DNA of 30,991 nucleotides, taken from the IMG/VR virus record IMGVR_UViG_3300049810_000332, positions 1 to 30,991 of that record. One strand, given 5' to 3'. The position numbers were made by a program, and so were the translations under genes. Positions 2,926-28,334 of this stretch are shown piece by piece (position 1 is the stretch's first letter; the number at the start of each line of letters is the position of its first letter). The notes beneath the pieces were generated by a model that searched no databases, had not been told where the DNA came from, and saw nothing but the letters and a program-made list of their open reading frames with translations. Source of the stretch: a virus.

Positions 2926-3897
2926 TTATTTTTCGTTGATTTGACGTTCAAATTCTCTTAAACGTTTGAATACACTCATTAACTCAATAAGTGTTGGCCA
3001 TGCTTTAAATAGATATTGAAGTGAGCCTTCTACTCTACCAAATGCACGAATAATCTGTTGCATTACACCAAGTGTTACAACGCCTGCTACAATAGCCGGT
3101 GCTAAGAACACATAAGCACTTAGTACGTTTGCTTGTAAGTATGTAATACGTCCTACATTAAAATACAAATAACGCAAGTAAGATTTAAAGTGAATACTAC
3201 GAACGCCATCAAACAATTCGTTAATAGTCTTTGGTCTCACAGTTTCATCATCTTCTGCAATAACTAATATCTTTCGATATGCGGCTTCTTTCTTTTGTAA
3301 GTCATATTCAACTCCTACTAATCGTAGTAACCAACCTAGTCCAATTAAGAATAGTGTACCACCTACTGACCAAACAATAGCACCTGTAATCAATCCATAT
3401 TGCCAATCTCCAAAGAAGAAGATAGGAATACCTACTGATAAACCAAATAGAATAGGAACGAACTGAACTAGAACCATAATCGATTCAATAAAACTTGTAC
3501 CTAGTCCTTCCATAATACGACTAAACTTAATAGTATCTTCTTGTACCCTTTGTGCGGCACCTTCAATAGTTCTTGCTTTATCATATACTGAATGATACCA
3601 TTCAACCATTGCCGTACGCCATCTAAACAAATAGTGTGCTGTAAAGTAACTTACTAGCACTGCAATAGCAACATATATCATTGCTAGATAGATAAACGTT
3701 CCTAAGCTGGCCCAATATTCACCTATAGTGATTGCATTAGGTGTTGCTAAAGCCGTTTGAATCATATCATAAAACTGACCAAACCATTCGTTAATCTTAA
3801 CATCAATCTCAACTTGTATCCAGAGTGATGATAAGATTAATGCTGACCCTAACCAGGCCCATAAGGACCATTTCTTTTCTGTAAAAAATCTAAACAT
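2926..3897 (-). CDS. SbmA/BacA-family inner-membrane peptide transporter-like protein
   Basis: This 323-residue polytopic membrane protein has about five to six hydrophobic segments (near residues 12-30, 66-92, 140-162, 167-194 and 255-285). The family signature is clear: an FRWR segment near residue 90 is followed by IEGAAQRVQEDTIKF, the hallmark of SbmA/BacA proteins. In bacteria these proteins are proton-driven importers of peptides and related compounds; E. coli SbmA has about 406 residues, so this version is shorter. The gene overlaps the end of the phosphomannomutase gene by eight bases and has AAAGGA before its start. I know of no established phage role. It could change peptide uptake by the infected cell or affect its sensitivity to peptides. 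Confidence 0.85.
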   Translation of the reverse strand: MFRFFTEKKWSLWAWLGSALILSSLWIQVEIDVKINEWFGQFYDMIQTALATPNAITIGEYWASLGTFIYLAMIYVAIAVLVSYFTAHYLFRWRTAMVEWYHSVYDKARTIEGAAQRVQEDTIKFSRIMEGLGTSFIESIMVLVQFVPILFGLSVGIPIFFFGDWQYGLITGAIVWSVGGTLFLIGLGWLLRLVGVEYDLQKKEAAYRKILVIAEDDETVRPKTINELFDGVRSIHFKSYLRYLYFNVGRITYLQANVLSAYVFLAPAIVAGVVTLGVMQQIIRAFGRVEGSLQYLFKAWPTLIELMSVFKRLREFERQINEK

Positions 3898-6526: not shown

Positions 6527-7672
6527 TTAGCATCCTCTATTGATTTCGGCTTCTAGTGCATCCGCATCTTCGTTCTGTACGCCGTTCCACCCTATTTGTT
6601 CCCATGGGACATTCTTGTCACCAAAGTGTCCATATGTACAGTTCTCACTATACTTATAAAAATTAAATAAATCAAATCTATCAATGATACCTTTAGGTGT
6701 CAAGTCGATATTGTTTCTAATAAACTTTTGAATTGAACGATTATGCCCGTTACTATCAACATAGATACTAGTTGGTTCCTTAACACCAATAGCATAGCTT
6801 AATTGTATATTACACCAATCTGCCATGTTATCTGCTACAATATTCTTTGCTAACCATCTTGCCATATAAGCCGCTGACCTATCTACTTTCGTAGGATCTT
6901 TTCCACTAAAAGCACCCCCACCGTGAGGAGCAAAACCCCCATAGGTATCCACGATAATTTTGCGTCCGGTGAGTCCTGTATCACCATCAGGGCCACCAAT
7001 AACAAACTTGCCAGTAGGATTGATATGCCATATAGTATCTTTATCAATTAAATCTCCCATTACATTATTAACTGCTTCACCAACTGTGCTTTTAAGAAGT
7101 TGCTCAGAACCCTCAGTATGTTGTGTACTTACAACAATCTGGTCAGCACGTTTTACTTTACCACCTTCATATTGTAAACTTACTTGTGATTTCGCATCTG
7201 GTAATAGAAATTTATAAGCAGTATTTCGTTTCTCTTTGAGGTCTTTAAGTATCTCATGTGCGTAATGTATCGGAGCAGGCATCATACTATCTGTGTGGTT
7301 ACATGCATATCCGAACATCAACCCTTGGTCACCAGCACCGAAATCATCAGTACCTAGTCCAATGTCTCCACTCTGTGAATGAATTTCATTATAAATTTTT
7401 AATTTATTCCAATGAAATCCCATTTGTTCATATCCAATTTCTTTAACTTTATTACGTATAATACGTTCAACAGTCGCATCTGTTAGATTAAAGTTTTTTA
7501 CTTCGCCCGCTACCGTTACATGGTTGGTGGTTACAAGTGTCTCAATGGCTACACGTGTTGTTTCATCACCCTTCTCAAGTCCAGCGTCAACTAGTGCATC
7601 ACTAATTTGGTCTGCTACTTTATCTGGGTGCCCATCACTGACACTCTCGCTTGTAAAAATATAGTTATTCAT
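6527..7672 (-). CDS. metK: S-adenosylmethionine synthetase
   Basis: The 381-residue product should make S-adenosylmethionine from methionine and ATP. Its length matches bacterial MetK (about 384). Diagnostic motifs are intact: SESVSDGHPDK near the N-terminus (H15, D17, K18), the signature GAGDQGLMFGYA at about 112-123, and the phosphate-binding GGGAFSGKDPTKVDRSAAY stretch near residue 260. The start is preceded by AAGGAG. It lies just downstream of folE and queE in the same transcript, driven by the promoter at 9473-9501. That places SAM supply next to a radical SAM enzyme, and other SAM users (14503-15048, 20998-22320) lie upstream. It looks like a full-length host-derived metabolic gene. 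Confidence 0.97.
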   Translation of the reverse strand: MNNYIFTSESVSDGHPDKVADQISDALVDAGLEKGDETTRVAIETLVTTNHVTVAGEVKNFNLTDATVERIIRNKVKEIGYEQMGFHWNKLKIYNEIHSQSGDIGLGTDDFGAGDQGLMFGYACNHTDSMMPAPIHYAHEILKDLKEKRNTAYKFLLPDAKSQVSLQYEGGKVKRADQIVVSTQHTEGSEQLLKSTVGEAVNNVMGDLIDKDTIWHINPTGKFVIGGPDGDTGLTGRKIIVDTYGGFAPHGGGAFSGKDPTKVDRSAAYMARWLAKNIVADNMADWCNIQLSYAIGVKEPTSIYVDSNGHNRSIQKFIRNNIDLTPKGIIDRFDLFNFYKYSENCTYGHFGDKNVPWEQIGWNGVQNEDADALEAEINRGC

Positions 7673-7789: not shown

Positions 7790-8711
7790 TTCCGAATAAG
7801 TTGATGTGTAATCTGGGCGTGAAACGCCACCCTTTCTCCATGCAAAGTTGGGCCACCTGCTTGACTGTAAAATCATATCCTTCACTTCTACCGCCCATTG
7901 GCATACAATAGACAGGGCACTCAACGCCCGCTTTCCTGTATAGTTCAACAGCTTTATGCACTTCATCAACATCAATAGCATCAGCAACAACAAATTTGAG
8001 ATAGATATCGCTACCATCAACAAGAGCATACTCATGAGCCACATCAGGCTTAATAGCAGTATCCCAAGATTCTCCAGAAACGGATAGCTTAGGCGAACAA
8101 CTCCATGTGACTTTAATGCGGTCATTGTCTGTGAGATAGTCAAATAACTCGTTGTGTAATGCTTGTGTAGTGTTTGTTTCAAATGTGACATTTTTTAAGT
8201 CCTTCATACGTGGATGTTCGAATAGTTCTACGTACAATCGTTGCCACGCCAACAACGGTTCGCCTCCTGTTAAAATTAAATGAATGTCTTGTCCATTGTC
8301 TTGAGTCCATTTTCCTTCTGGAGTAAGCGATAATAGATGCTCTACTACTTCATCAATAGTTTTGTCCATCACTAAATGCTTAAACTCTGGATAGATACTT
8401 GCATAAGTGTCACATCCTGTATGTATGATGGGTAAGTCTTCAAATTTCTTTGTAGTTTCATGTACACCATCTTTAATTAATTGTTCTACTTCTGGATTAT
8501 AACGTGTCTTCTCTCTGCCTCGCTCAAGACCAAAGTTTTGACAACGTAAATTACAGCCGAAGGTTCGTAGGAATACACTAGGTACTCCTACAAACTTGCC
8601 TTCGCCTTGTACAGAATAAAATGCTTCTGAATATCTCAATTTCATAGCTGACTTTTTGTTAACTGCTTCGTAAGAAGGATAACCTTTTTCAAATACAGGT
8701 GCGCCTATCAT
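7773..8711 (-). CDS. queE: QueE-like 7-carboxy-7-deazaguanine synthase (radical SAM)
   Basis: The enzyme would convert 6-carboxy-tetrahydropterin to 7-carboxy-7-deazaguanine, the ring-contraction step of the preQ0 pathway. The QueE N-terminus is recognisable (YSVQGEGKFVGVPSVFLR, residues 32-49), as is GGEP at 149-152. The cluster motif is unusual: C53-N-L-R-C57 is present, but the third position of a normal CX3CX2C is a phenylalanine (F60). The nearest further cysteine is C100 in HTGCDTY. The start overlaps the folE stop in an ATGA junction. At 312 residues it is longer than typical QueE proteins (210-250). Its neighbours folE and metK, and the queD-like and dpdA-like genes upstream, support the assignment. 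Confidence 0.85.
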   Translation of the reverse strand: MIGAPVFEKGYPSYEAVNKKSAMKLRYSEAFYSVQGEGKFVGVPSVFLRTFGCNLRCQNFGLERGREKTRYNPEVEQLIKDGVHETTKKFEDLPIIHTGCDTYASIYPEFKHLVMDKTIDEVVEHLLSLTPEGKWTQDNGQDIHLILTGGEPLLAWQRLYVELFEHPRMKDLKNVTFETNTTQALHNELFDYLTDNDRIKVTWSCSPKLSVSGESWDTAIKPDVAHEYALVDGSDIYLKFVVADAIDVDEVHKAVELYRKAGVECPVYCMPMGGRSEGYDFTVKQVAQLCMEKGWRFTPRLHINLFGNAWGT

Positions 8712-9409
8712 CTTGGTGCAAACTCCTGTTGTAGTTTAATGTTATCCATAAATTCTGTTTTTACATGTGCATTCTCAAAAAAAGAACCTTTGAGAACAGT
8801 TGTTTGTGTAAGACTACTATGAGCCATTATACCTCTATTCTCACAACAACCATGTGTTGCTTGAATATACACACCTACATCATCTGAGCCTGTAACTTTA
8901 CGAATTTCTCTGTTTATGTCCATTGCTAGTTCTTCTTGTAGTGTACCACGCCTTGCACACCATTGTGCAATACGAGTATACTTGCTTAGACCAATAAGTT
9001 TGTCTGCGGCAATGATACCAATGTATGCAACACCTTTAACAGGTTGATGATGATGTGAACAGACACTTGTTAGTTCCGAGCGAACAACAAGCATACCTTC
9101 ATACTTGTCACCTGTTACATTATCTGGTTCATTAGGAAATGCAGTTGCAGGAGGGGGTAATTCATACCTACCTGCCATGAGTTCGTTGATATACATTTTA
9201 GCTAAACGTCTACCTGTATCCATTGAATTTGGATCAGTTTTTCTGTCTATTACTAAACTGTCTAATACGCCTTCAAACTTTTCAGTGAGTTCGTCTATAA
9301 GATTTTCTTTATCACCTTTTTCGATAATATCTGATATATTATCTCCTGCCCAATAACGAGCGCCCGAGGCATCTAATCGTGCCTTTAATATTTCGGAAGT
9401 CTTTTTCAT
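8708..9409 (-). CDS. folE: GTP cyclohydrolase I
   Basis: The 233-residue product would convert GTP to dihydroneopterin triphosphate, the first step toward 7-deazaguanines. The zinc site is visible as C117-S-H119-H120 in TSVCSHHHQPV and C188 in ATHGCCENRG, matching the C/H/C ligands of the family. A conserved core ARRGTLQEELAMDI lies between them. It is the first gene of a transcript that starts at the promoter 9473-9501, and it overlaps queE by four bases. An AAGGA ribosome binding site is about 11 bases upstream of the start. In this context it most likely serves DNA-base modification and not folate synthesis. Confidence 0.95.
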   Translation of the reverse strand: MKKTSEILKARLDASGARYWAGDNISDIIEKGDKENLIDELTEKFEGVLDSLVIDRKTDPNSMDTGRRLAKMYINELMAGRYELPPPATAFPNEPDNVTGDKYEGMLVVRSELTSVCSHHHQPVKGVAYIGIIAADKLIGLSKYTRIAQWCARRGTLQEELAMDINREIRKVTGSDDVGVYIQATHGCCENRGIMAHSSLTQTTVLKGSFFENAHVKTEFMDNIKLQQEFAPR

Positions 9410-18943: not shown

Positions 18944-20743
18944 TTATTTTCGTTTTTTTCCATGTGAACCGCAACTTGCGTCCATTAGTTTCTGTGCTAC
19001 TACATCGATTTTTGCAAAGTCTGAGTCAGTTAGGTCAGACATTTTCTTTGGATTAGATTTTAGTTTGATGTTCTTACCACCAACTGAGATAGAGTCACCA
19101 GCTTTCTTACCTTGCTTAGCCGCTTTATCTAGTTCTTTGTAGAATTCATTGTACTCTGACATTGCAAGTCTAGCCGAATTGTTAACAATTCTGTCTGCTA
19201 CATCGTCTGCATTGAATACTTTTTTCTTACTTGTTGGGACAGCACCACCACTAACACCAGATAGTTTGTTTTGCATACCAATTGCCGCCGCTTTCGCAAC
19301 ACTACCGATACCTTTACCTACTGCTTTTGTGATTGGTGAATTCTTTACTGCTTTGCCAACTGCGATACCCTTTTCAATGCCTCTAGCTGTTTTAATTGCT
19401 GTTTTCTTATCCATTCCTGCTTTAGCCGCCATACCTACGCCTACTTTAGCAAGTGTGCCTAATTTGCCCTCTTTAAGTGAGGACATAGCAAAGTCGGCAA
19501 TCTTTAACATACCAGCTTTAGTTTTTAGCATGTTGTCAATTTTTTCTTTGTTAGCATCGTTAACTTTATCATAAACTTGTGTAACAGCCGATGCAGTAAA
19601 TAAATCTACTTTCATCTGGCCATCATCAAATTTAACAGGCATATTTTGTTTGTCTGCTACGATTTTCTTTAGAGTATCCATTGCACCTTCTTCAATCATT
19701 GCTGATTCTTCTACTGCCAAATGTGCATCGATACCAGCAGTTGATTTCATCTTCCAATGTTCAGCCGCCTTTTTAGCCGCTCCGTATGAGGTAGTCGCAT
19801 GACATTCGTGTTTGCCTTTTTTAGCATGTACACAAATGTATGGTTTTTCATCTGCTTCTGAAACTGATTCATTTGCGTGACCAAGTTCTGCCATTCTTTT
19901 AGCAACAATATCTCTAACGTCTTTGTTACCTTGTTCTTGTGCTTCGGCCATATCATCTAATAATTCATCATCAAACACAAAAGACATAACCATATCAGTT
20001 GTTTCGTCATTTGCTTCACGTGGTTCATCCATGAATTCATTATATTTTGAAACTGCCTCAGCATATTCTTCTTCTGGTTGACCATCATATTTCATTAGTC
20101 CGCCAATCATAGTACCTTCTTTGATACCTGATGCTTTGGCTTCTGCATTAAGTGATGCTATTCTACGCATAAGTTCTGCTTTTAATTCTGGGTCTTTGCT
20201 TGTCTCAGGGTCCAACTGAATGTCTTGTAATGCTTTTCTTTTTGCATCGTAATCATCTTGGGTGAGCGACCCTGCTGATTCTTCCATGCTTTCTTCTGCG
20301 TCTGGCTTGTTGGCCATCACTGCATCATAGTCTGCCATTTCTTCATCGTTTGGCATTTCCTCTGCACCTGGAACATTCATGTCCATACCGCTCATTTCAC
20401 CATCTTCTGGTTCTTCGGGAGACATATCAGGCGCCATGTCCATGTCGCTTGGTGCTTCTGGATCCATCGATGGGATTTCACCAGGCATATCCATAGCCGG
20501 AGCCTGGTCATTACCTAATTCTAGTGTATGCATACGAGCCGCTAGACTATCAGACATACGTTCATATGCCTCATAAGACTTATTATGCTGTTGTGAAAAT
20601 GTTAAGGCTAAATCATGAACCGCATCACGGGCATTCTTTCCACCTTCTAATTCTGTTTTGAGTTGTTCCGTACCACGGTTTAAGTAATCTTCAAACTCAT
20701 CGTTGTTGATTACAAAACTCTCTGTTAATTGTGTAAGTTTCAT
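18944..20743 (-). CDS. Large internal-head-like protein with capsid-targeting-type N-terminus
   Basis: The 599-residue protein starts MKLTQLTE, resembling the T4 capsid-targeting peptide with an L-T-E prohead-protease-type site at residues 6-8. Residues 80-155 are an acidic, M/D/P/E-rich low-complexity stretch. Residues 300-345 form a small domain with YICVHAKKGKHECHATTSY followed by an A/K helix. Residues 425-495 are a G/A/K-rich basic stretch that could be membrane-active or DNA-binding. Three further [IL]-[KE]-E-G sites occur at 207-210, 350-353 and 423-426. No enzyme motif is visible. I infer a packaged or scaffold-type head protein. The start overlaps the stop of the 76-aa gene (TAATG). 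Confidence 0.7.
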   Translation of the reverse strand: MKLTQLTESFVINNDEFEDYLNRGTEQLKTELEGGKNARDAVHDLALTFSQQHNKSYEAYERMSDSLAARMHTLELGNDQAPAMDMPGEIPSMDPEAPSDMDMAPDMSPEEPEDGEMSGMDMNVPGAEEMPNDEEMADYDAVMANKPDAEESMEESAGSLTQDDYDAKRKALQDIQLDPETSKDPELKAELMRRIASLNAEAKASGIKEGTMIGGLMKYDGQPEEEYAEAVSKYNEFMDEPREANDETTDMVMSFVFDDELLDDMAEAQEQGNKDVRDIVAKRMAELGHANESVSEADEKPYICVHAKKGKHECHATTSYGAAKKAAEHWKMKSTAGIDAHLAVEESAMIEEGAMDTLKKIVADKQNMPVKFDDGQMKVDLFTASAVTQVYDKVNDANKEKIDNMLKTKAGMLKIADFAMSSLKEGKLGTLAKVGVGMAAKAGMDKKTAIKTARGIEKGIAVGKAVKNSPITKAVGKGIGSVAKAAAIGMQNKLSGVSGGAVPTSKKKVFNADDVADRIVNNSARLAMSEYNEFYKELDKAAKQGKKAGDSISVGGKNIKLKSNPKKMSDLTDSDFAKIDVVAQKLMDASCGSHGKKRK

Positions 20744-20973
20744 TATTTTGCTCTCTTAATCATTGGACTCTTGACAGGCTTATTGTAAACTAAATTACCT
20801 ACATTAGCAGAAAAACCCATCTTATAGTTCTTTTGTTTCTTACCAGGTGTCAAATACCCATATGGGTCTACTGCCTTTTTGGCATCCTTAGCTTTCGTAC
20901 CCGGTGTCATTGGCATAGCCACACCTGCAAACGCTCCACTAAAATTTTCACCTAATAATTCTGTTAATTTCAT
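20743..20973 (-). CDS. Small basic internal-protein-like product, 76 aa
   Basis: The ATG at 20973 is chosen because it gives the N-terminus MKLTELLGENF shared with the other tagged genes; the in-frame TTG at 20988 is less likely. Sites L-T-E (3-5) and L-G-E (7-9) fit prohead-protease cleavage. The rest is basic and G/P/K-rich (GYLTPGKKQKNYK), like small T4 internal head proteins. A GATAAATA motif lies right before the start, but no good ribosome binding site is seen. Confidence 0.65.
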   Translation of the reverse strand: MKLTELLGENFSGAFAGVAMPMTPGTKAKDAKKAVDPYGYLTPGKKQKNYKMGFSANVGNLVYNKPVKSPMIKRAK

Positions 20974-20997: not shown

Positions 20998-22320
20998 TTA
21001 ATTGGAATTTACTAGTTCATTGAAGTGTGGGAAGCACTCTGAATATGAGATTTTGCGTCTATCTTCTAATATTTTAAACTGTTTTTGTGCTATTAGCTTA
21101 GTTTCTACTGGCACTTCGCTTTCTACTAGTGATTTCATTGTCTTCATTAATCTAATATATCTTTGTTTTTTATAGAAATTACCAGACATATTCTGAAAAT
21201 ATTCTATTTGTTCTTCTATTGCATCTGCATGATGTGGCTCTAATGAATCTACTGCTAAATGCACTGGATTATCTACCCAATTCTGATGCATTAATATTGT
21301 CTTATCGTATTCATACTTATTTATTTTATCATTAAGGTACACTAAAAAATCTTTGAAGTAGGGAAGACTTAAACTATTGTGGGCGCAACCAAAACCAATA
21401 ATTAGATTATCAATATCCTTTGATTTCTCAAAAAATAAATCTAAGTTTTCATCCCATTTATTAAAATCTAATCCCCACCTAATCAATTCACTCTGCTTAT
21501 TTAATGCTTCACCTGATAGTTGCATTTCGTAACGTATATTTGGAGTTCTATGTACTAGTTCAATAAATTTATCGAATTTCTTTTTAGGGAAGTTTAAATT
21601 TGTTGTAACAGTGATTACTACTATTTGTCCTTCAGTGTGAGTGTCATTGATGTTTACCATAAATTCTTCAATAAACTTAAACATATGGTCAGTAAAAAAC
21701 GGCTCTCCGCCTAGTAAACTAAAGTTAACATGTCCTTGTCCTACTAATTTCTTATCCCAATAATCATTTAAAATATTCAGTGTCTTATCAAACATTGCAT
21801 CATCTGTATCTGGAAAACGCTGACCTACTTCTTTTTGCCAACGAGTACTAGAACCAGCCCAACAATATACACACGCCATGTTGCATTTATTTGTTAATTC
21901 TATTTCAATAAACTTGAAGTTGTCACGTTCCATCATATCTCTATGAAATTGTTTAGCCATGTTTGGATGATTGCCGGCTTTTTGTAAACGCATTCTCCAC
22001 GGATAATCGTAATTACTGTTATATGATGTTCTAACACTCTCTCCGCCTGCATCTTCTGTTCTCCAACAACCTGAACAATCTGTACTGCGGGTGCCTCCAC
22101 TTAATTCATACTTTCGTTGTTGTAGTATAGGATGATTAAATAAAAAATCTTCGGTAAGCGTATCTATGTCAAATGTTAGTTCTTTCATTTGCTCAGGCGT
22201 ATGTTGTGTTTTACAACACCACTTTACTGTTCTTTGAGGTAAGGATATTATAATGTCGTTCCAGTTTTTGAAACACATTGTATTTTTTAAATTATGAAGA
22301 TTTGGATTTAGTTCATTCAT
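20998..22320 (-). CDS. Radical SAM protein with N-terminal twitch/SPASM-like cysteine module
   Basis: The radical SAM motif is C146-N-M-A-C150-V-Y-C153, followed by LLGGEPFF in the 210s, so a SAM-cleaving [4Fe-4S] core is clear. Ahead of it lies a cysteine-rich module: C16 in MCFKNW, C35-C36 in KWCCKT, and C82/C85 in DCSGCWRTED. This spacing recalls SPASM/twitch auxiliary-cluster sites, placed N-terminally as in twitch radical SAM proteins annotated in other marine T4-like phages. The gene overlaps the fusion gene by four bases and sits among genes for putative packaged proteins. Such enzymes often modify peptides. The substrate is unknown; a neighbouring virion protein is one possibility. 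Confidence 0.85.
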   Translation of the reverse strand: MNELNPNLHNLKNTMCFKNWNDIIISLPQRTVKWCCKTQHTPEQMKELTFDIDTLTEDFLFNHPILQQRKYELSGGTRSTDCSGCWRTEDAGGESVRTSYNSNYDYPWRMRLQKAGNHPNMAKQFHRDMMERDNFKFIEIELTNKCNMACVYCWAGSSTRWQKEVGQRFPDTDDAMFDKTLNILNDYWDKKLVGQGHVNFSLLGGEPFFTDHMFKFIEEFMVNINDTHTEGQIVVITVTTNLNFPKKKFDKFIELVHRTPNIRYEMQLSGEALNKQSELIRWGLDFNKWDENLDLFFEKSKDIDNLIIGFGCAHNSLSLPYFKDFLVYLNDKINKYEYDKTILMHQNWVDNPVHLAVDSLEPHHADAIEEQIEYFQNMSGNFYKKQRYIRLMKTMKSLVESEVPVETKLIAQKQFKILEDRRKISYSECFPHFNELVNSN

Positions 22321-25300
22321 TTTTTCTTTGTACGCAGTAGCTTTTTAGGTTTCCCATCCTTGTCTACGTCATTACCAAACTTTTTAGCTTGTTTAGTAAT
22401 TTCATTGGGTCCTACATCAACTGTGGTATTTATACCTGGTACGACACGCCCTACGCCTGCCGCCTCTTTAACATCTTTTCTACTGAATACTTTTTTAATT
22501 GCTTGTACTGTATTGGCTGTAGTCGTTGTGTGATGTTTAATTGCGATACCACCTGCTGATTGCCATCCTTTGACATTCTTACCAAAATCATCAATTAACA
22601 AGTTCGGTGTACCGTCTTGCTTAGTTGCATATTTTGATTTGTTATGGTCAATGATAACTTGCTCTGGTTTAAAGAAGTTTAAATGTTTTCTCACCCACTC
22701 TCTTTTACCAGGATCCACGTTTGGATCGTTTGCAAGAGGGGAACTTAATATTTTATATTTGCCTTTTGTGGCTTTAATTGTGTTGAGCAGTTCTTTATGA
22801 CCTGCTAGTGTTGGCAAATCTTCCCAGAAGTTTGGAGTATTAACAATCTTCTTAAGTGCTTTGCCTATTTGCTCTTTTGGTATGTCTCTGTATGATTTGA
22901 CATTCATAATTCTAGCCCACTCATTAAAGAAATCAACCAATACGCCATCCATATCCACATATACATCAGGAGTATTATCTTCTAATAGTCTTTCGAAATC
23001 TTCATCTAATGATTTTTTATTCATCCAATTATCATACTTGCTTTCAGCCCAATTTGCAACCTTTTTCGTATCTGTTTTTACCCATGGTCCTCGATGCATG
23101 AATTTTGCTGAGATAGATACTTGTTTACCGAACAGTTCTTTTGGATGAAGTATGGATATATGATAAAGTCTCTTGTCATTATCAACACCTGTGACTTCAA
23201 CTTCAATTTGTTCATACTTCTTACCAGCAAACTTGACATTATGTCCTGTCATAAACTTGCCTACTGCTTCTAATACTATGGTTTCTTTAACTGGAACTTT
23301 ATTTAACAAGTCTTCCTTGCTTAGTTTGTAGTTAGATTTCATCCACTCATCTTTTAAATCAGCAATCATCTTACCAAGATTAGGACCAGCTACATAACCT
23401 CTTGCTAGTAAGTCTTTACCATTGATTGGGAAGTCTGGTTGTTCAAATCCGTGTACTGCATCATATACATCATTCTTGCCATGCATGTTTGCCCATGCAA
23501 GTAAATGATCCTGTGAGGCACCATTGATAATCATATCTTGTGCTTGTTTTGGATTGATGTTTTCACCTTTGTGCTTGATTAAGAAGTCAAACATTTCTCT
23601 ATCGTAATTGCTCATCTTCCAATCTCTTGCAATACCACTACTGTCCAGCATTCTTGCAAGGGCAATAATAGGTCCTGTAGGCTCACCTAGTTTAGCTGGA
23701 TTGATACCTTCAAGTCCAATCTTACTTGATACGCCTGTCTTGTTCATCCATTCAAGTGCTTCTTTGGCACTCGAACCCATTAACAATTTGCTCATTTCTT
23801 GCCAAATTCTTTCAACAGATAAACCTGTCATGCCATCTGCATTATCTTTGATTGCATTTAATGTGACATCGTCCCACTTTGGACTATCTAACTTAGATTG
23901 AAATCTAAAGTATCTTAAGATACGCAAATAATCTTCTTTAATTCTTTCTTCTGGATCCCCTACGAACCTACTTACTTTATCTTGCAAGTCGTCCATACCA
24001 CCATTGTAATCATGTACTGTACCGTCAATGTCCATTGACATTGCGTTGTATGTTAAGTCTCTACGTTTGGCATCTTCTTCCCATGAACGTACAAATTCTA
24101 CATCAGCATGTCTACCATCAGTATTTGTATCTGCACGTAGAGTTGTTATTTCAAAATCTTCACCATCGATAACCGCAGTTATTGTACCATGCTCTATGCC
24201 TGTAGGAATGTGTCTGATACCTTCTTTGTCAAGCATAGCAATCATTTCATCCGGTGTAGCATCTGTGGCAAAGTCAATATCTTTTGGCTCTTTACCTAAT
24301 GCAATATCTCTTACAGCGCCACCTACTATTCTGACTTCATATTGATTCTTTTTAAATACTTTATCTAGCTTACGAATAGCCTGGGTAATGATAGGTTTGA
24401 CGTTCAATGCTTCTTCTCTTAATGCTGATAACATAGTGTTCAGTGCTTCATTAACTCTTTCGTTTGTTTGTGGATAACGGATCATTGTTTCTCTAAAACG
24501 AAAGTCTTTGTTGCGACCTTTGTTTGGTACAAAACCAAAACGCTTGTAAAACTTAATCAGTCTATTCTTATTCCCACCAAATGCATCATCTGGTGTTAGT
24601 GCAATAATGGCGCCTTCTCTATCCATTCTATCAACGATATTTTGCATTTCTTTGGTCCCTTGACCAGCATTGCGTTCATCGCCTGATACTTCAATCTTAG
24701 ATAGTACATAACCTTTTTTAGCATCGCCATGTAACGATACTTCAACTTCTTCGCCTACGTAGGCTTTGACTGTTTTAATACCTTGTGCCTTGTATGCTTG
24801 AAGTCTATGGTTGCCATCTAATAGATATCCATCGTTGCCTATTACCATTGGGGGGAATTGAGATGTGTCTGCTTTTTTATATTTTTCAACATTTGCCTGA
24901 CTCATTCCATCGCTCTTTACTGCTGTTGGTATCTTATCAACTTGTACGTCTTTTAGTTTAAACCCTTTATGAGATAGAACAAACTTTGACCAGTCTGAGT
25001 TTGGATCCATTGCGCCCGTATGTGTGCCTTGCATTTCTTTTGATAGTTTTGTCAACATTTGTTGTGATGATATTACTGAATTAGCAAGTTTAACTTCTTC
25101 TTCGACTTGAGAATTTGCTATTGCTTTAAGTTCATCAGGTAACATATTGATAGCTTCTTTTCGTAGACTAGCTTTTCCATTTTTCATAACTCTTAACAGG
25201 TCAGCCTTTTCTGCATGGTAAACTTTAGCAAACTTAGGATCGTTCTTGCCGATATCTCTGCCATTGCTTATCAAATCGGCATATTTAACTGTTTGTGCTT

Positions 25301-26060
25301 CTGCACTAACACCTGCAAGTTTATCTCTGTCTATGCCTTTGCGTACTTTTCTATTACCGTCTTCTGGTTTACTTACATCAGTAAGTTCAACAACTAGTTT
25401 TGCAATCTGAGGACCAAATTCTCTTGTTACATCTGCTGGTGTAACACTTGTATCTTCTACTGTATCATGCAACAAAGCGGCACACTGTTGATTCACAGAA
25501 CCACCTGCCTGTTTAACGATATTTCTCACTTCATCTAAGTGTACATAGTATGGTTCACCAGTGTACTTTCTCTTGTGGTCTTTGTGAGCCTCTTGAGCAA
25601 ATTGTTCTGCCTTTGCTATGATATCCATTGATTCGTCCTCTGTGTAGATATCTTTGAAGTATACACTAGGAAACTTTAATGTCAAGGATAAAAGTTCATG
25701 AACATCAACATTTGCACGTAAAATATTAATATCTCTACCTGTATTCAAAGCGGCCAACCACCGATGATGTCCATCTATAATCCAACTGTCACTACTTGCT
25801 AGTAGAGGTTTTGGGTTCTGGCCGTCATATTTTTTGTTCTTTGTAAGTTGTCTTTCAACACCTTGGTCTGAAAATTCTTTTTGTATTGGTTTTAAATCTT
25901 TTGCACTTACGACTTGTGAAGTTAGAGTTACGCCGTTCTTTTTAAGATAAGATTTATATTCGTCATAGTCTGTAGATTTCACTTGAGGCATTTTGTCCCT
26001 TGTGATACCCATAGTATCTTCTGGTTTAGGCTTCTCTATTTTGAATTCAGCTAGGCGCAT
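22317..26060 (-). CDS. 1247-aa multi-enzyme fusion: ParB-like, HD alarmone-hydrolase-like, ParB-like, GNAT, CCA-adding type, HAD
   Basis: Domains in order: a ParB/sulfiredoxin-like module (about 45-125, IIDGHHRW); an HD hydrolase of SpoT/MESH1 type (about 150-300, H174 in YYVHLDEV, LLHDTVEDT with H198-D199, VKYAD with D262) and no synthetase domain; a second ParB-like module (about 365-440, LLDGNHRL); a GNAT acetyltransferase-like region (about 450-530, RNAGQGTKEM and FYKRFGF); a class II CCA-adding/poly(A) polymerase-like nucleotidyltransferase (about 555-900, VGGAVRD, DIDFATD with D594/D596, EEDAKRRDLTYNAM); a linker domain (about 935-1010); and a HAD nucleotidase-like domain (about 1030-1195, YVDMDGVLVDF with D1036/D1038, LSS, LLIDDFG). 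It starts MRLAEF, like its tagged neighbours, and has LRE (547-549) and LDE (1018-1020) sites near domain borders. Key catalytic residues look intact. I infer a packaged polyprotein; the separate domain calls are firmer than that. Confidence 0.85.
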   Translation of the reverse strand: MRLAEFKIEKPKPEDTMGITRDKMPQVKSTDYDEYKSYLKKNGVTLTSQVVSAKDLKPIQKEFSDQGVERQLTKNKKYDGQNPKPLLASSDSWIIDGHHRWLAALNTGRDINILRANVDVHELLSLTLKFPSVYFKDIYTEDESMDIIAKAEQFAQEAHKDHKRKYTGEPYYVHLDEVRNIVKQAGGSVNQQCAALLHDTVEDTSVTPADVTREFGPQIAKLVVELTDVSKPEDGNRKVRKGIDRDKLAGVSAEAQTVKYADLISNGRDIGKNDPKFAKVYHAEKADLLRVMKNGKASLRKEAINMLPDELKAIANSQVEEEVKLANSVISSQQMLTKLSKEMQGTHTGAMDPNSDWSKFVLSHKGFKLKDVQVDKIPTAVKSDGMSQANVEKYKKADTSQFPPMVIGNDGYLLDGNHRLQAYKAQGIKTVKAYVGEEVEVSLHGDAKKGYVLSKIEVSGDERNAGQGTKEMQNIVDRMDREGAIIALTPDDAFGGNKNRLIKFYKRFGFVPNKGRNKDFRFRETMIRYPQTNERVNEALNTMLSALREEALNVKPIITQAIRKLDKVFKKNQYEVRIVGGAVRDIALGKEPKDIDFATDATPDEMIAMLDKEGIRHIPTGIEHGTITAVIDGEDFEITTLRADTNTDGRHADVEFVRSWEEDAKRRDLTYNAMSMDIDGTVHDYNGGMDDLQDKVSRFVGDPEERIKEDYLRILRYFRFQSKLDSPKWDDVTLNAIKDNADGMTGLSVERIWQEMSKLLMGSSAKEALEWMNKTGVSSKIGLEGINPAKLGEPTGPIIALARMLDSSGIARDWKMSNYDREMFDFLIKHKGENINPKQAQDMIINGASQDHLLAWANMHGKNDVYDAVHGFEQPDFPINGKDLLARGYVAGPNLGKMIADLKDEWMKSNYKLSKEDLLNKVPVKETIVLEAVGKFMTGHNVKFAGKKYEQIEVEVTGVDNDKRLYHISILHPKELFGKQVSISAKFMHRGPWVKTDTKKVANWAESKYDNWMNKKSLDEDFERLLEDNTPDVYVDMDGVLVDFFNEWARIMNVKSYRDIPKEQIGKALKKIVNTPNFWEDLPTLAGHKELLNTIKATKGKYKILSSPLANDPNVDPGKREWVRKHLNFFKPEQVIIDHNKSKYATKQDGTPNLLIDDFGKNVKGWQSAGGIAIKHHTTTTANTVQAIKKVFSRKDVKEAAGVGRVVPGINTTVDVGPNEITKQAKKFGNDVDKDGKPKKLLRTKKK
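22427..22434 (-). promoter_or_regulatory. Late-promoter motif TATAAATA inside the fusion gene
   Basis: This is a perfect TATAAATA followed by CCACAG on the minus strand, about 107 bases upstream of the radical SAM gene start. It could give that gene an additional late transcript. It lies within coding sequence, so chance occurrence is possible. Confidence 0.4.
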
Positions 26061-26071
26061 TTAAAACAATC

Positions 26072-27211
26072 CTAATTTTTAATATTTCTATCTAAGCTGG
26101 CTAAATTTGCGTTTGCATTTTTGCCAAAGTTACTCTTGTTTAATTGCATTTTATTTACAATTTTCTTGAAGCCTTCTTTAGTTCTTAGATATTGTTTAAT
26201 GATTTCTTTTTGTTCTGGTCTTGCAATATCATGATACGCCATTGTAAATCTTTTCGCAAGTTCAGGTGTAACTTTAATTTCTTCATTATCTTTAAATTTA
26301 ATTGGAAAAGGCATATTATCTGCACGTGCGGCTAAGTTATCTAATACTCTCAAAGGATCAGATTGTTTAACAGGCTGACCTTTATTATATTCTACGATTA
26401 GATAAAAATCATCTTCGTTAGATTCGTGTATCTTATTATATACGTCTGCAAGTTCTCTTGCATTTATTCCATGCATGGTACGAGAAATATCAAATGCGTA
26501 TCCACTTACACTTTGTCTGTTGCCTTTAGAAGTCACAAGCCTATGCAATGCATCTAGGGCCGCCTTCATATATCTTTCTGGTACATTTAATATAGCTTTA
26601 TCAGGATGACTAAAATCTTCTGGTAAGGCATAATCTGCAATATTCTGTCCTAGTCTTTTTGTTTTTTGTTGTAAACTACGTAACTTCTTAATACCTTTAC
26701 CAGTTGTAATTGCAACCTTAAACATACCTTTAAGTACATCAACTGTTGTCTTTGCCAACACAGCCATAATAATTAATTCTGCTAACGGAGGGACTGAACC
26801 AAAATCTTCACTAACATCTACAGTGGACTCTACTGGAAATTCTTTGTTTGATGTTTTGAAGTTCTTTTTACGCATGACAGTTTTTGCAACTAAGTCTAGT
26901 TCTTCGTTGTCTCTGTCCCATTTCAATACAAAAGGAATATTGATATCACTTTCTAAGTCTTTCATCACTGCCTCAGCATCAGGACCCATCTGTGCAATTG
27001 GTTTACCCCAACGCTTGTATTCTTTTTTAAACAAATTTACCAACTCAGGCATAGTGATTTGTTGACCATTACGGTCATCGTTTGCTCTATCGATAAAGTG
27101 TCTAGTGAATTCTACATCGATGTTGAGACTAGAAAACAAATTATCTAATGCTTTTTCTAAAGCATTTAATTGAGTGTTAGTTATTGGTTGTTCTACTTCA
27201 TCTAATCTCAT
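26072..27211 (-). CDS. Unknown 379-aa protein with capsid-targeting-type N-terminus
   Basis: The protein starts MRLDEVEQP, with an L-D-E site at residues 3-5. An N-terminal domain (about 30-130) has VEFTRHFIDRANDDRNGQ followed by ELVNLFKKEYKRWG and LVAKTVMRKKNFKT. This H/R-rich arrangement looks enzymatic and recalls phage internal-protein domains of unknown activity. A hydrophobic stretch near 143-158 (PLAELIIMAVLAKTTV) and a basic segment follow. The C-terminal half is helical and ends in a basic tail. It is one base from the nucleotidyltransferase gene upstream and 11 bases from the fusion gene downstream. A toxin-like nuclease fold is one idea, not shown. Confidence 0.7.
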   Translation of the reverse strand: MRLDEVEQPITNTQLNALEKALDNLFSSLNIDVEFTRHFIDRANDDRNGQQITMPELVNLFKKEYKRWGKPIAQMGPDAEAVMKDLESDINIPFVLKWDRDNEELDLVAKTVMRKKNFKTSNKEFPVESTVDVSEDFGSVPPLAELIIMAVLAKTTVDVLKGMFKVAITTGKGIKKLRSLQQKTKRLGQNIADYALPEDFSHPDKAILNVPERYMKAALDALHRLVTSKGNRQSVSGYAFDISRTMHGINARELADVYNKIHESNEDDFYLIVEYNKGQPVKQSDPLRVLDNLAARADNMPFPIKFKDNEEIKVTPELAKRFTMAYHDIARPEQKEIIKQYLRTKEGFKKIVNKMQLNKSNFGKNANANLASLDRNIKN

Positions 27212-27212
27212 T

Positions 27213-28334
27213 TTATTTTCCCTTTTGTGACTTCAAAACTTGTATTTCTTTTTGCAATACTTCTATTGCTTTAGTAAGTCTTGCCAATTCTTTTTCTTGT
27301 TTATAGTCAGCTTTGTCGCCGTCTCTTTCATTCTTTTCTACGTCTGCCAATAAAGCCGATAACACATTGTCTGCCTGCGGATATTTAGTTTTCAACTGAA
27401 CCAATGCTCTTGCAGTTTTAGGGTCAAACCCTTTTAACAAATCTTCTGATTTTTCTTTTTCTTTAACAGGAGTTGGTTCATTCCTACGTTGATTAACTTT
27501 GGAAGGATCCATACCTAATTCAGATGCTTTACGATATTTTGCCATTGTTTTGAGTGCGTATGCTTTCTTTCTGGCTCGTCTTGCCATTGCAGGCGATAAT
27601 GCTTCACCCATATCCTGCATTAGTTGTGCTTCCATAAGAGACTCATACAACGAATGCTCTTCCCAATTTTCATTTGTAATTCCTTTTTGTAATTTATTTT
27701 GAAATAATTGCATTACATCTTTTGGAATATTAGGATTGCCATATAAATCTTGTAAAATCTGTTCTAGTGTTGACTCGTCTGCCTTCGCAATCATGTCACG
27801 AATTTGGGTAGCACTATTAATTGCCTGTCCTCTTATTTCGAACTTAAACGTAGGTACTGTAGTAATATATGAATGGTCACGCAATGGTTTAGCATTCTCA
27901 ATCCCAGGCCATTTTTGCATATGAGCAGGTTGTCCTTTTTTAGCACCTCTAGTTAATAGAGCCATACCAGTGTCCGGGAAGTTAAATCTAGGGTCTTCTG
28001 CCATATCTTTCTCTGATACTGCATAAACTATTACGGTCTTATCTGGGTCAAATCTGTCTGTAATCTCTGTAGCAACATAAGGAACTTTACATTGAACGAT
28101 AGAATTAGGGTCTACACCAGCTAATTGCATCATCTTTTTCTTCTCTTGGAATGTAAAGGGAGACTTATGATTATCCGTTTTATCAGAAGATGCAATAAAT
28201 ACTTGTGCACCTTTATATTGTTGTTTTAGATACTTGAATACTTTCCCATGTCCAATGTGAAATGGGTGAAATCTTCCTGGATATATTACAACAAGATTGC
28301 TGTTTTCGTTCTCAAATAAGTCGTATAATCTCAT
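27213..28334 (-). CDS. HxGH nucleotidyltransferase-like protein with capsid-targeting-type N-terminus
   Basis: Residues 13-170 form a cytidylyltransferase/NMN-adenylyltransferase-like domain: VVIYPGRFHPFHIGHG contains the HxGH motif (H26, H29), followed by FIASSDKTD and FTFQEKKKMM. The enzyme would transfer a nucleotide to a phosphate-containing acceptor such as NMN, but the substrate is not certain. The N-terminus MRLYDLFEN has an L-F-E site at residues 6-8. The C-terminal half is charged, has LMEAQLMQDMGEA, and ends in a coiled coil (about 325-373). It is the first gene after the terminator at 28381-28406 and has its own late motif at 28365-28372, so it leads the late block. Confidence 0.8.
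   Translation of the reverse strand: MRLYDLFENENSNLVVIYPGRFHPFHIGHGKVFKYLKQQYKGAQVFIASSDKTDNHKSPFTFQEKKKMMQLAGVDPNSIVQCKVPYVATEITDRFDPDKTVIVYAVSEKDMAEDPRFNFPDTGMALLTRGAKKGQPAHMQKWPGIENAKPLRDHSYITTVPTFKFEIRGQAINSATQIRDMIAKADESTLEQILQDLYGNPNIPKDVMQLFQNKLQKGITNENWEEHSLYESLMEAQLMQDMGEALSPAMARRARKKAYALKTMAKYRKASELGMDPSKVNQRRNEPTPVKEKEKSEDLLKGFDPKTARALVQLKTKYPQADNVLSALLADVEKNERDGDKADYKQEKELARLTKAIEVLQKEIQVLKSQKGK

Follow-up and report, generated by a model that had tools for sequence, protein, structure and literature searches.

A multi-enzyme phage polyprotein with a T4-like N-terminal tag as predicted virion cargo for tRNA 3'-end repair

Introduction

What tailed phages inject besides DNA is largely unknown beyond a few models. 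We analyzed a 30,991-nucleotide stretch of viral DNA (IMG/VR virus record IMGVR_UViG_3300049810_000332, positions 1–30,991; hereafter the window), in which one open reading frame (ORF) of 1247 amino acids joins candidate ParB-like and GNAT modules with a small alarmone hydrolase (SAH), a class II CCA-adding enzyme and a HAD nucleotidase-like domain. An earlier sequence-only reading had placed the ORF at 22317–26060, which was borne out, although it lies on the minus strand, a detail which that reading had left out.

The explanation that we favor, with a probability of roughly 0.55, is that the polyprotein is virion cargo, which would be packed in a T4-like head, cut by protease, injected, and used to repair tRNA ends. 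We also propose, tentatively and at a little short of even odds, that the capsid-maturation protease of T4-like jumbo phages doubles as a polyprotein processor, and that the chain is packaged whole, cut in the prohead, and injected as a set of enzymes for mending tRNA 3' ends, which would take off pyrophosphate and phosphate, rebuild CCA and be able to act before phage gene expression.

Domain organization of the polyprotein

The modules of the ORF follow one another in the order tag, ParB-like 1, SAH, ParB-like 2/GNAT, CCA-adding, HAD, and C-terminal module, as listed here with slashes marking predicted cut positions.

22317..26060, minus strand: polyprotein ORF, 1247 amino acids; open frame confirmed and conserved in relatives
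26028..26060, minus strand: N-terminal tag MRLAEFKIEKP, residues 1–11, resembling the T4 capsid-targeting sequence (CTS), with LxE at residue 5
25641..26027, minus strand: ParB-like domain 1, residues 12–140; subthreshold PF08857 match, homology to giant PLxRFG/internal virion proteins
25116..25634, minus strand: SAH domain (HD_4), residues 143–315; profile, PDB matches and motif residues
24450..25079, minus strand: ParB-like 2 and GNAT segment, residues 328–537
24414..24416, minus strand: predicted protease site LRE549/E, upstream of the CCA enzyme
23289..24404, minus strand: class II CCA-adding enzyme, residues 553–924; profiles, PDB match and motifs
22980..23003, minus strand: predicted protease sites LDE1020/ and LLE1027/, ahead of the HAD domain
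22482..22973, minus strand: HAD 5'(3')-nucleotidase-like domain (NT5C), residues 1030–1193; Pfam and profiles
22464..22466, minus strand: weaker candidate site VKE1199/, ahead of the C-terminal module
22341..22463, minus strand: small C-terminal module beginning GVGRVVPGINTTVDVGPNEI, residues 1200–1240; recurs in other tagged proteins

The enzyme families are clear, while the packing label and the repair role are predictions from sequence. Profile searches agreed with the SpoT/MESH1-like HD hydrolase, the class II CCA enzyme and the HAD nucleotidase named by the sequence-only reading, and their motif residues were intact. The SAH domain matched HD_4 (PF13328, 8.3e-16) and phrog_990 (8.1e-40), with MESH1 and RSH structures among its PDB matches. 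It is an HD hydrolase domain without a synthetase domain, and all residues of the H...HD...ED...D..N pattern (H174, H198, D199, E202, D203, D262, N266), which we take to be catalytic, were present. The CCA enzyme matched the PolyA_pol head (PF01743, 3.2e-34) and PolyA_pol_RNAbd (3.8e-8), and its best solved relative was human TRNT1 (4x4w; residues 554–922, E = 3.1e-75). It contains DxD (594/596), RRD (666–668) and EDxxR (709–713), presumably the head-domain motifs of class II CCA-adding enzymes, together with a complete body and tail. The NCBIfam equivalog NF009814 scored 216.8 bits against a threshold of 290, over residues 558–780 only. The HAD domain matched NT5C (PF06941) at 1.9e-10 and 41.4 bits, above the cut-off of 24.8. 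No peptidase domain was matched in the ORF by Pfam.

The two ParB-like modules and the GNAT domain claimed earlier fared unevenly. ParB-like domain 1 fell short in Pfam (PF08857, 22.0 bits against a cut-off of 23.6, aligned residues about 73–118), but was widely supported by tblastn, with 446 phage records matched and 373 covering at least 80% of the query. It is homologous to parts of giant PLxRFG and internal virion proteins, and one homologue sits in a phage protein whose partial record note reads 'verified by mass spectrometry as part'. ParB-like stretch 2 gave weak PHROG matches only. The GNAT assignment came through a homologue: the window ORF had no Pfam GNAT match, while the homologous segment of another phage (L125) matched Acetyltransf_1 at 31.5 bits (cut-off 20.7). 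For the window's ParB2-GNAT segment, the best PDB profile match had an E-value of 0.064, to a non-GNAT chain, and the predicted structure had a mean pLDDT of 31.

Relatives and module shuffling

Module sets were detected with hidden Markov models built in this analysis from few sequences. The SAH, CCA and ParB-like 1 scans list at most 80 loci each, the SAH domain occurring at 80 loci or more. Duplicates were removed by matching sequence prefixes or identical boundary strings, with relatives still counted together.

A scan of viral contigs gave 14 loci, three of which carried the identical full protein. In four aligned, diverged relatives (L006, L007, L009, L011) one open frame had the order ParB1-SAH-x-CCA-HAD-C-module; the 210-residue ParB2-GNAT segment was missing, with an unrelated stretch in its place, and a copy 89% identical to the window segment was found in another phage (L014). 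One relative was a 342,607-base contig (the 342-kb relative) carrying T4-like head genes. At 192761–193390 it encodes a gp21-type protease (Peptidase_S77, PF03420, E = 4.6e-27), next to genes that, judged by sequence and gene order, would encode a scaffold protein and a capsid protein of T4 type. Such a protease was found in none of five shorter records, which are fragments, and the window fragment lay outside that search.

Among the contigs examined the modules were reshuffled into at least eight distinct orders, including CCA-HAD, HAD-CCA-Cmod, ParB1-CCA-HAD-GNAT, Cmod-SAH-CCA, Cmod-HAD-ParB1-CCA and GNAT-HAD, or occurred as separate neighbouring genes. With the window family set aside, there were 68 CCA loci: 17 had HAD fused to CCA, 11 had it as a separate same-strand gene no more than 2 kb away, and among the other 40 there were 18 in which the sequence runs out no more than 2 kb from the CCA ORF. 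Outside the window family, SAH-CCA fusion was seen in a single contig (recorded as L054 and L200). The SAH gene neighbours the CCA gene in L056 and L057, and it lies ~2 kb downstream in L199, L201 and L202. In the 484-kb phage LR756508 the SAH and CCA genes are also ~2 kb apart; a fusion considered there was rejected, as these are separate genes with two TROVE-like ORFs between them. The row of SAH gene, the two ORFs and CCA-adding gene spans L035 3995–7726, and the two ORFs read by eye like a TROVE/Ro60 protein. A phage search with the C-terminal module matched one record only, Sinorhizobium phage Phosso.

N-terminal tag

The sequence-only reading had also pointed to an M-[RK]-L tag. As worded this pattern was too loose: of 452 genes called in the 342-kb relative, 10 begin with it, and six of the 10 are not part of the cluster. 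It was dropped as a genome-wide tag. A T4-like start did prove enriched on module proteins. In its refined form the pattern reads M-[KR]-x(1-3)-[EDQN]-hydrophobic and requires [LIVFM]xE between residues 3 and 22, as in MRLAEFKIE, MRALEFLVEA, MRINEVILHEE, MKISDLTE and MKMHEVTE. It was present on 37 of 56 module-bearing proteins, compared with 69 of 715 other proteins at the same loci, and on 10 of the 452 genes of the 342-kb relative. A stricter pattern without the LxE condition gave 38/56 and 75/715.

In T4, the refined pattern recovered all three internal proteins (IPI, IPII, IPIII) and none of 56 other proteins, which were coding sequences hand-picked from the gene table rather than the full T4 set. 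Tags of module proteins resemble the T4 IPII/IPIII start MKTYQEFIAE, and the first ten residues of IPIII are enough for T4 head targeting (PMC9026906). The window tag itself departs from the T4 tags in that LxE is already reached at residue 5 and the subsequent FKIEK is unlike T4; judged on sequence alone, the resemblance to the T4 CTS is significant for the set of module proteins as a whole. Stand-alone homologues of ParB-like domain 1 in Aeromonas phages P19 and 65 are without the window protein's first ten residues.

Tagged genes were also clustered. Across 41 loci (797 genes, 128 tagged), 49 adjacent tagged pairs were counted, compared with 24.5 expected and a maximum of 35 in 1000 shuffles. 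A T4 late promoter, TATAAATA, was considered as a sign of late expression and proved uninformative, since it lay within 60 bp upstream of 6 of 452 genes in the relative, the capsid gene not included.

Predicted cleavage at module joints

Some module joints are shared between proteins, standing at the end of an N-terminal tag in one and in an internal linker of another, which we counted in favor of predicted cleavage at the joints. The C-module joint occurs as the tag end MKMHEVTE/SVGRVVKG and the internal linker KTVSE/AGGVGRVVPG, and the CCA joint as the tag end ILHEE/LLDVK and the linker SLNEE/ALNVK. Of the 50 distinct internal boundaries, 39 carried the T4-type prohead-protease motif [LIVMF]xE (CCA 14/17, HAD 13/16, C-module 11/11, SAH 1/6), compared with 10% of within-domain windows. 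A stricter joint motif was found at 32 of 50 boundaries (3.6% of windows), and its reverse at 15 of 50 (11%).

The window protein has seven [LI]xE. The tag holds one, another stands ahead of CCA and a pair ahead of HAD; the other three fall within domains, and EDxxR includes one of those. Sites lie on either side of CCA in L006, L007 and L009, and two flank the SAH domain in L054. Three small tagged basic proteins begin MKIKDI[TI]E/TATAGAT[SA]SGNIA (L145 11558, L150 12042, L158 11548). The part after the slash is close to the predicted mature capsid start of the relative, VALNE/SATAGATQAGNIA, whose cleavage point was set by analogy with T4 gp23.

[LI]xE was also avoided inside the cargo CCA and HAD domains. 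Twelve representative cargo CCA domains (<70% identity) contained 23 [LI]xE against 44.2 expected (z = −3.4). No depletion was observed in the controls, namely 60 bacterial CCA enzymes (269 vs 244.2) and five phage CCA enzymes of the untagged class (23 vs 19.5), one of which, L192, is 5'-cut, so that a tag could not show. Per residue, cargo and bacterial CCA enzymes differed (Mann-Whitney p = 2e-5), and [LI]xxE, [LI]xD and [LI]xQ were at non-depleted levels in the cargo domains. Cargo HAD domains contained one [LI]xE against 17.6 expected, a comparison with one untagged control only. T4 IPI, IPII and IPIII have exactly one [LI]xE apiece, at residues 19, 10 and 10.

A possible role at tRNA 3' ends

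These observations suggest a mechanism of several steps. The N-terminal T4-type capsid-targeting peptide would bring the polyprotein into the prohead, as the tag statistics suggest. A gp21-like prohead protease would then trim the tag and cut at [LI]xE between modules, freeing the enzymes, as motif positions and avoidance suggest. The precedent of T4 internal proteins and of polyvalent proteins suggests that the enzymes would enter the host along with the DNA.

In the host, the enzymes may meet at the tRNA 3' end. ToxSAS toxins, including the anti-phage CapRel, pyrophosphorylate tRNAs (PMC9712102, PMC11782079, PMC11559606); FaRel2 does so at the 3'-CCA end, and the SAH of Salmonella phage SSU5, which is 40% identical to the window SAH, counteracts FaRel2 by removing the tRNA modification (PMC11559606). 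Because a homologous phage SAH clears this mark from the CCA end, SAH and CCA enzyme could share the tRNA 3' end as their target. The SAH would take off the 3'-pyrophosphate placed by toxSAS-type defences such as CapRel, and the CCA-adding enzyme, whose family is given by its sequence, would restore eroded ends. The HAD domain, judging from its family and its linkage to CCA, may strip 3'-phosphates that would otherwise block CCA addition.

The sequence-only reading had proposed an injected cocktail that resets starvation signalling and restores tRNA ends. Packaging gains indirect signs from the tag, the clustering of tagged genes, the joint motif and the avoidance in CCA and HAD, but two unrelated functions are not needed if SAH and CCA act on one end. 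If the proposal is true, tag, LxE joints and LxE avoidance would together form a rule for listing packaged proteins from sequence, [LI]xE avoidance inside modules would be a genome-readable mark of proteins passing through the prohead, and a capsid protease would be shown splitting multi-enzyme cargo. The tRNA 3'-CCA ends would then be a target that the phage protects from the very start of infection, which fits with toxSAS defences that modify tRNA, CapRel among them.

Alternative explanations

The strongest competitor, which we consider unlikely though worth serious attention, is that the cargo is packaged but the SAH acts on soluble (p)ppGpp, (p)ppApp or NADPH and resets host signalling, with the CCA enzyme acting separately on tRNA. 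Hydrolysis of (p)ppGpp or NADPH by the SAH may indeed occur, judging from its family: MESH1 and RSH hydrolases are among its PDB matches, the alarmone has been suggested as the target of jumbo-phage HD alarmone hydrolases (PMC7824862), and one SAH antitoxin is promiscuous in neutralising the products of toxSAS (PMC11782079). However, a soluble target on its own leaves the fusion or adjacency of SAH and CCA unexplained, in the window family as in L054/L200, L056, L057, L199, L201 and L202, and the homologous phage SAH works on tRNA (PMC11559606).

We regard as improbable that the protein is a multifunctional enzyme produced in the infected cell and never packaged, whose tag-like start and LxE positions are coincidental or otherwise used. 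As this explanation would have it, tags are missing from the CCA genes examined in five other phages and from most of the stand-alone SAH genes among the matches listed, whereas the tag enrichment, the T4 comparison, the gene clustering, the joint motif and the site avoidance all speak for packaging. A CCA enzyme that merely matures phage-encoded tRNAs is very improbable: the 342-kb relative does carry tRNA genes, of which 10 were found, as well as a predicted tmRNA, but all 10 already encode CCA, so that repair fits better than maturation, SAH, HAD and tag are left unexplained, and no tRNA gene was found in the window, which is part of its phage's genome. The tmRNA was predicted by ARAGORN in the 342-kb phage record (L031 15184–15530), with the tag ANDNYQPEMAMAA.

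Several points weigh against packaging, processing and tRNA repair. Packaging, processing and activities are all predictions from sequence. The tag pattern was not blind, having been shaped from examples already seen and from a T4 sequence, and Alt, gp67, gp68, gp21 and gp22, T4 head proteins that are cleaved too, fail it. Among the matches listed, 69 of 74 stand-alone phage SAHs are without a tag-like start. At the joints, only one of the six SAH boundaries has [LIVMF]xE, and the reversed motif is also raised (36/50 boundaries vs 23%), so acidic linkers or composition account for part of the joint signal. Cargo CCA domains are depleted in [LI]E, [VMF]xE and [KR]xE as well, the last two likewise in bacteria; cargo HAD domains are not depleted in the wider [LIVMF]xE (27 vs 29.9); and avoidance is non-significant in cargo SAH (17 vs 21.2) and ParB1 (6 vs 10.9). 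Linkage of SAH to CCA is rare outside the window family and confined to few lineages among the SAH matches listed, and the counts throughout rest on sequences that are related to one another and on genes called with a home-made program.

Comparison with known systems

The sequence-only reading knew of no described system with this combination, which is too strong for the kind of protein, since both polyvalent proteins, which are injected and have multiple domains (PMC5512222), and T4 internal proteins bearing a CTS (PMC9026906) have been described. The particular combination in the window was not found in our searches of the open-licence PubMed Central (PMC) literature, which is no proof of its absence from print; within that literature the combination and the processing route appear new.

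Like the polyvalent proteins (Iyer et al. 2017, PMC5512222), which include P1 DdrB and the N4 virion RNA polymerase, the window polyprotein has many unrelated enzyme domains per chain, reshuffled architectures, and candidate ParB-like and GNAT domains; polyvalent proteins hold 2–15 functionally different domains per polypeptide. The giant PLxRFG/DarB-like phage proteins also carry domains homologous to its own. The metallopeptidase domain of polyvalent proteins seems to be replaced here by a T4-type tag together with a prohead protease that is encoded separately. SAH and CCA also distinguish it, as PMC5512222 describes RelA/SpoT synthetase domains and has no occurrence of 'tRNA nucleotidyl'.

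With T4 IPI–III and Alt (CTS, gp21 cleavage), it shares a short N-terminal [LI]xE peptide, and like them it would belong to a diverse set of injected cargo; the T4 internal proteins similarly have few or no cleavage motifs within the mature part. It differs from them in joining several enzymes, of other kinds than theirs, in one chain that carries predicted internal cut sites. Delivery with DNA defines both polyvalent and T4 internal proteins, and for the window polyprotein it is predicted from sequence. The SSU5 SAH, PaSpo, has identical motif residues, but is encoded by a stand-alone gene without such a tag, whereas the window SAH is fused. Jumbo-phage CCA-adding enzymes belong to the same family, with an RNA repair role proposed (PMC7824862); those of Atu_ph07, MD18, CcrColossus, Gurke and LR756508 are separate and untagged, unlike the window's.

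Neighbouring genes

The polyprotein gene lies within a cluster of tagged genes.

26072..27211, minus strand: tagged neighbour, MRLDEVE, with an N-terminal 'VEFTRHF' domain (phrog_23027)
27213..28334, minus strand: tagged neighbour, MRLYDLFE/N, cytidylyltransferase-like
20998..22320, minus strand: untagged radical-SAM gene within the tagged cluster; profile matches, conserved there in the relatives listed
20743..20973, minus strand: tagged small basic protein, likely start MKLTELLGE/NFSG
18944..20743, minus strand: tagged neighbour, MKLTQLTE/SF

The 'VEFTRHF' domain also occurs as a module elsewhere, at residues 412–525 of the L054 protein and between HAD and CCA in L140, L150 and L158. Its model had a mean pLDDT of 60 and no Foldseek match at E ≤ 0.001. 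With this low-confidence model, RelE, HigB2 and CdiA toxin chains topped the VIA-align list at Z 4.6–3.9, middling by the tool's own note, and a RelE/BECR-like identity (RelE/HigB/CdiA-type RNases) is offered as a lead only. The radical-SAM gene product may, speculatively, modify a cargo peptide.

For the 18944–20743 protein, Pfam, PHROGs and NCBIfam gave no match at the thresholds applied. Several tagged proteins, namely this one, one in L014 and the L011 polyprotein, contain recurring small modules with Cys residues (KPYICVHAKKGKHECHA, KKSINCSNPKGFSQKAHCAG, GRVKRSGASCNGS); a phage search with the 'KPYICVHAKKGKHECHA' module from the 18944–20743 protein matched nothing. A PADLOC defence search gave no match among six proteins.

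Tagged neighbours across the loci included DUF6267, peptidoglycan-binding and cytidyltransferase-like proteins, with PARP-like matches below the cut-off. The latter were weak PARP/ADP-ribosyltransferase matches in tagged proteins L190 9085–9933 (E = 0.004) and L192 4613–5497 (E = 0.00016), for which T4 Alt, a packaged ADP-ribosyltransferase, offers a comparison.

Elsewhere in the window, a full-length SbmA/BacA-type peptide transporter gene was found at 2926–3897 (PF05992, E = 8.6e-140), and a DegP-like gene at 880–2151 encodes a trypsin-like protease and PDZ domain with an apparent membrane-anchor N-terminus. GTP cyclohydrolase I (8708–9409) and a complete S-adenosylmethionine synthetase (6527–7672) are encoded near a DNA polymerase B gene, pointing to a possible 7-deazapurine or methylation pathway.

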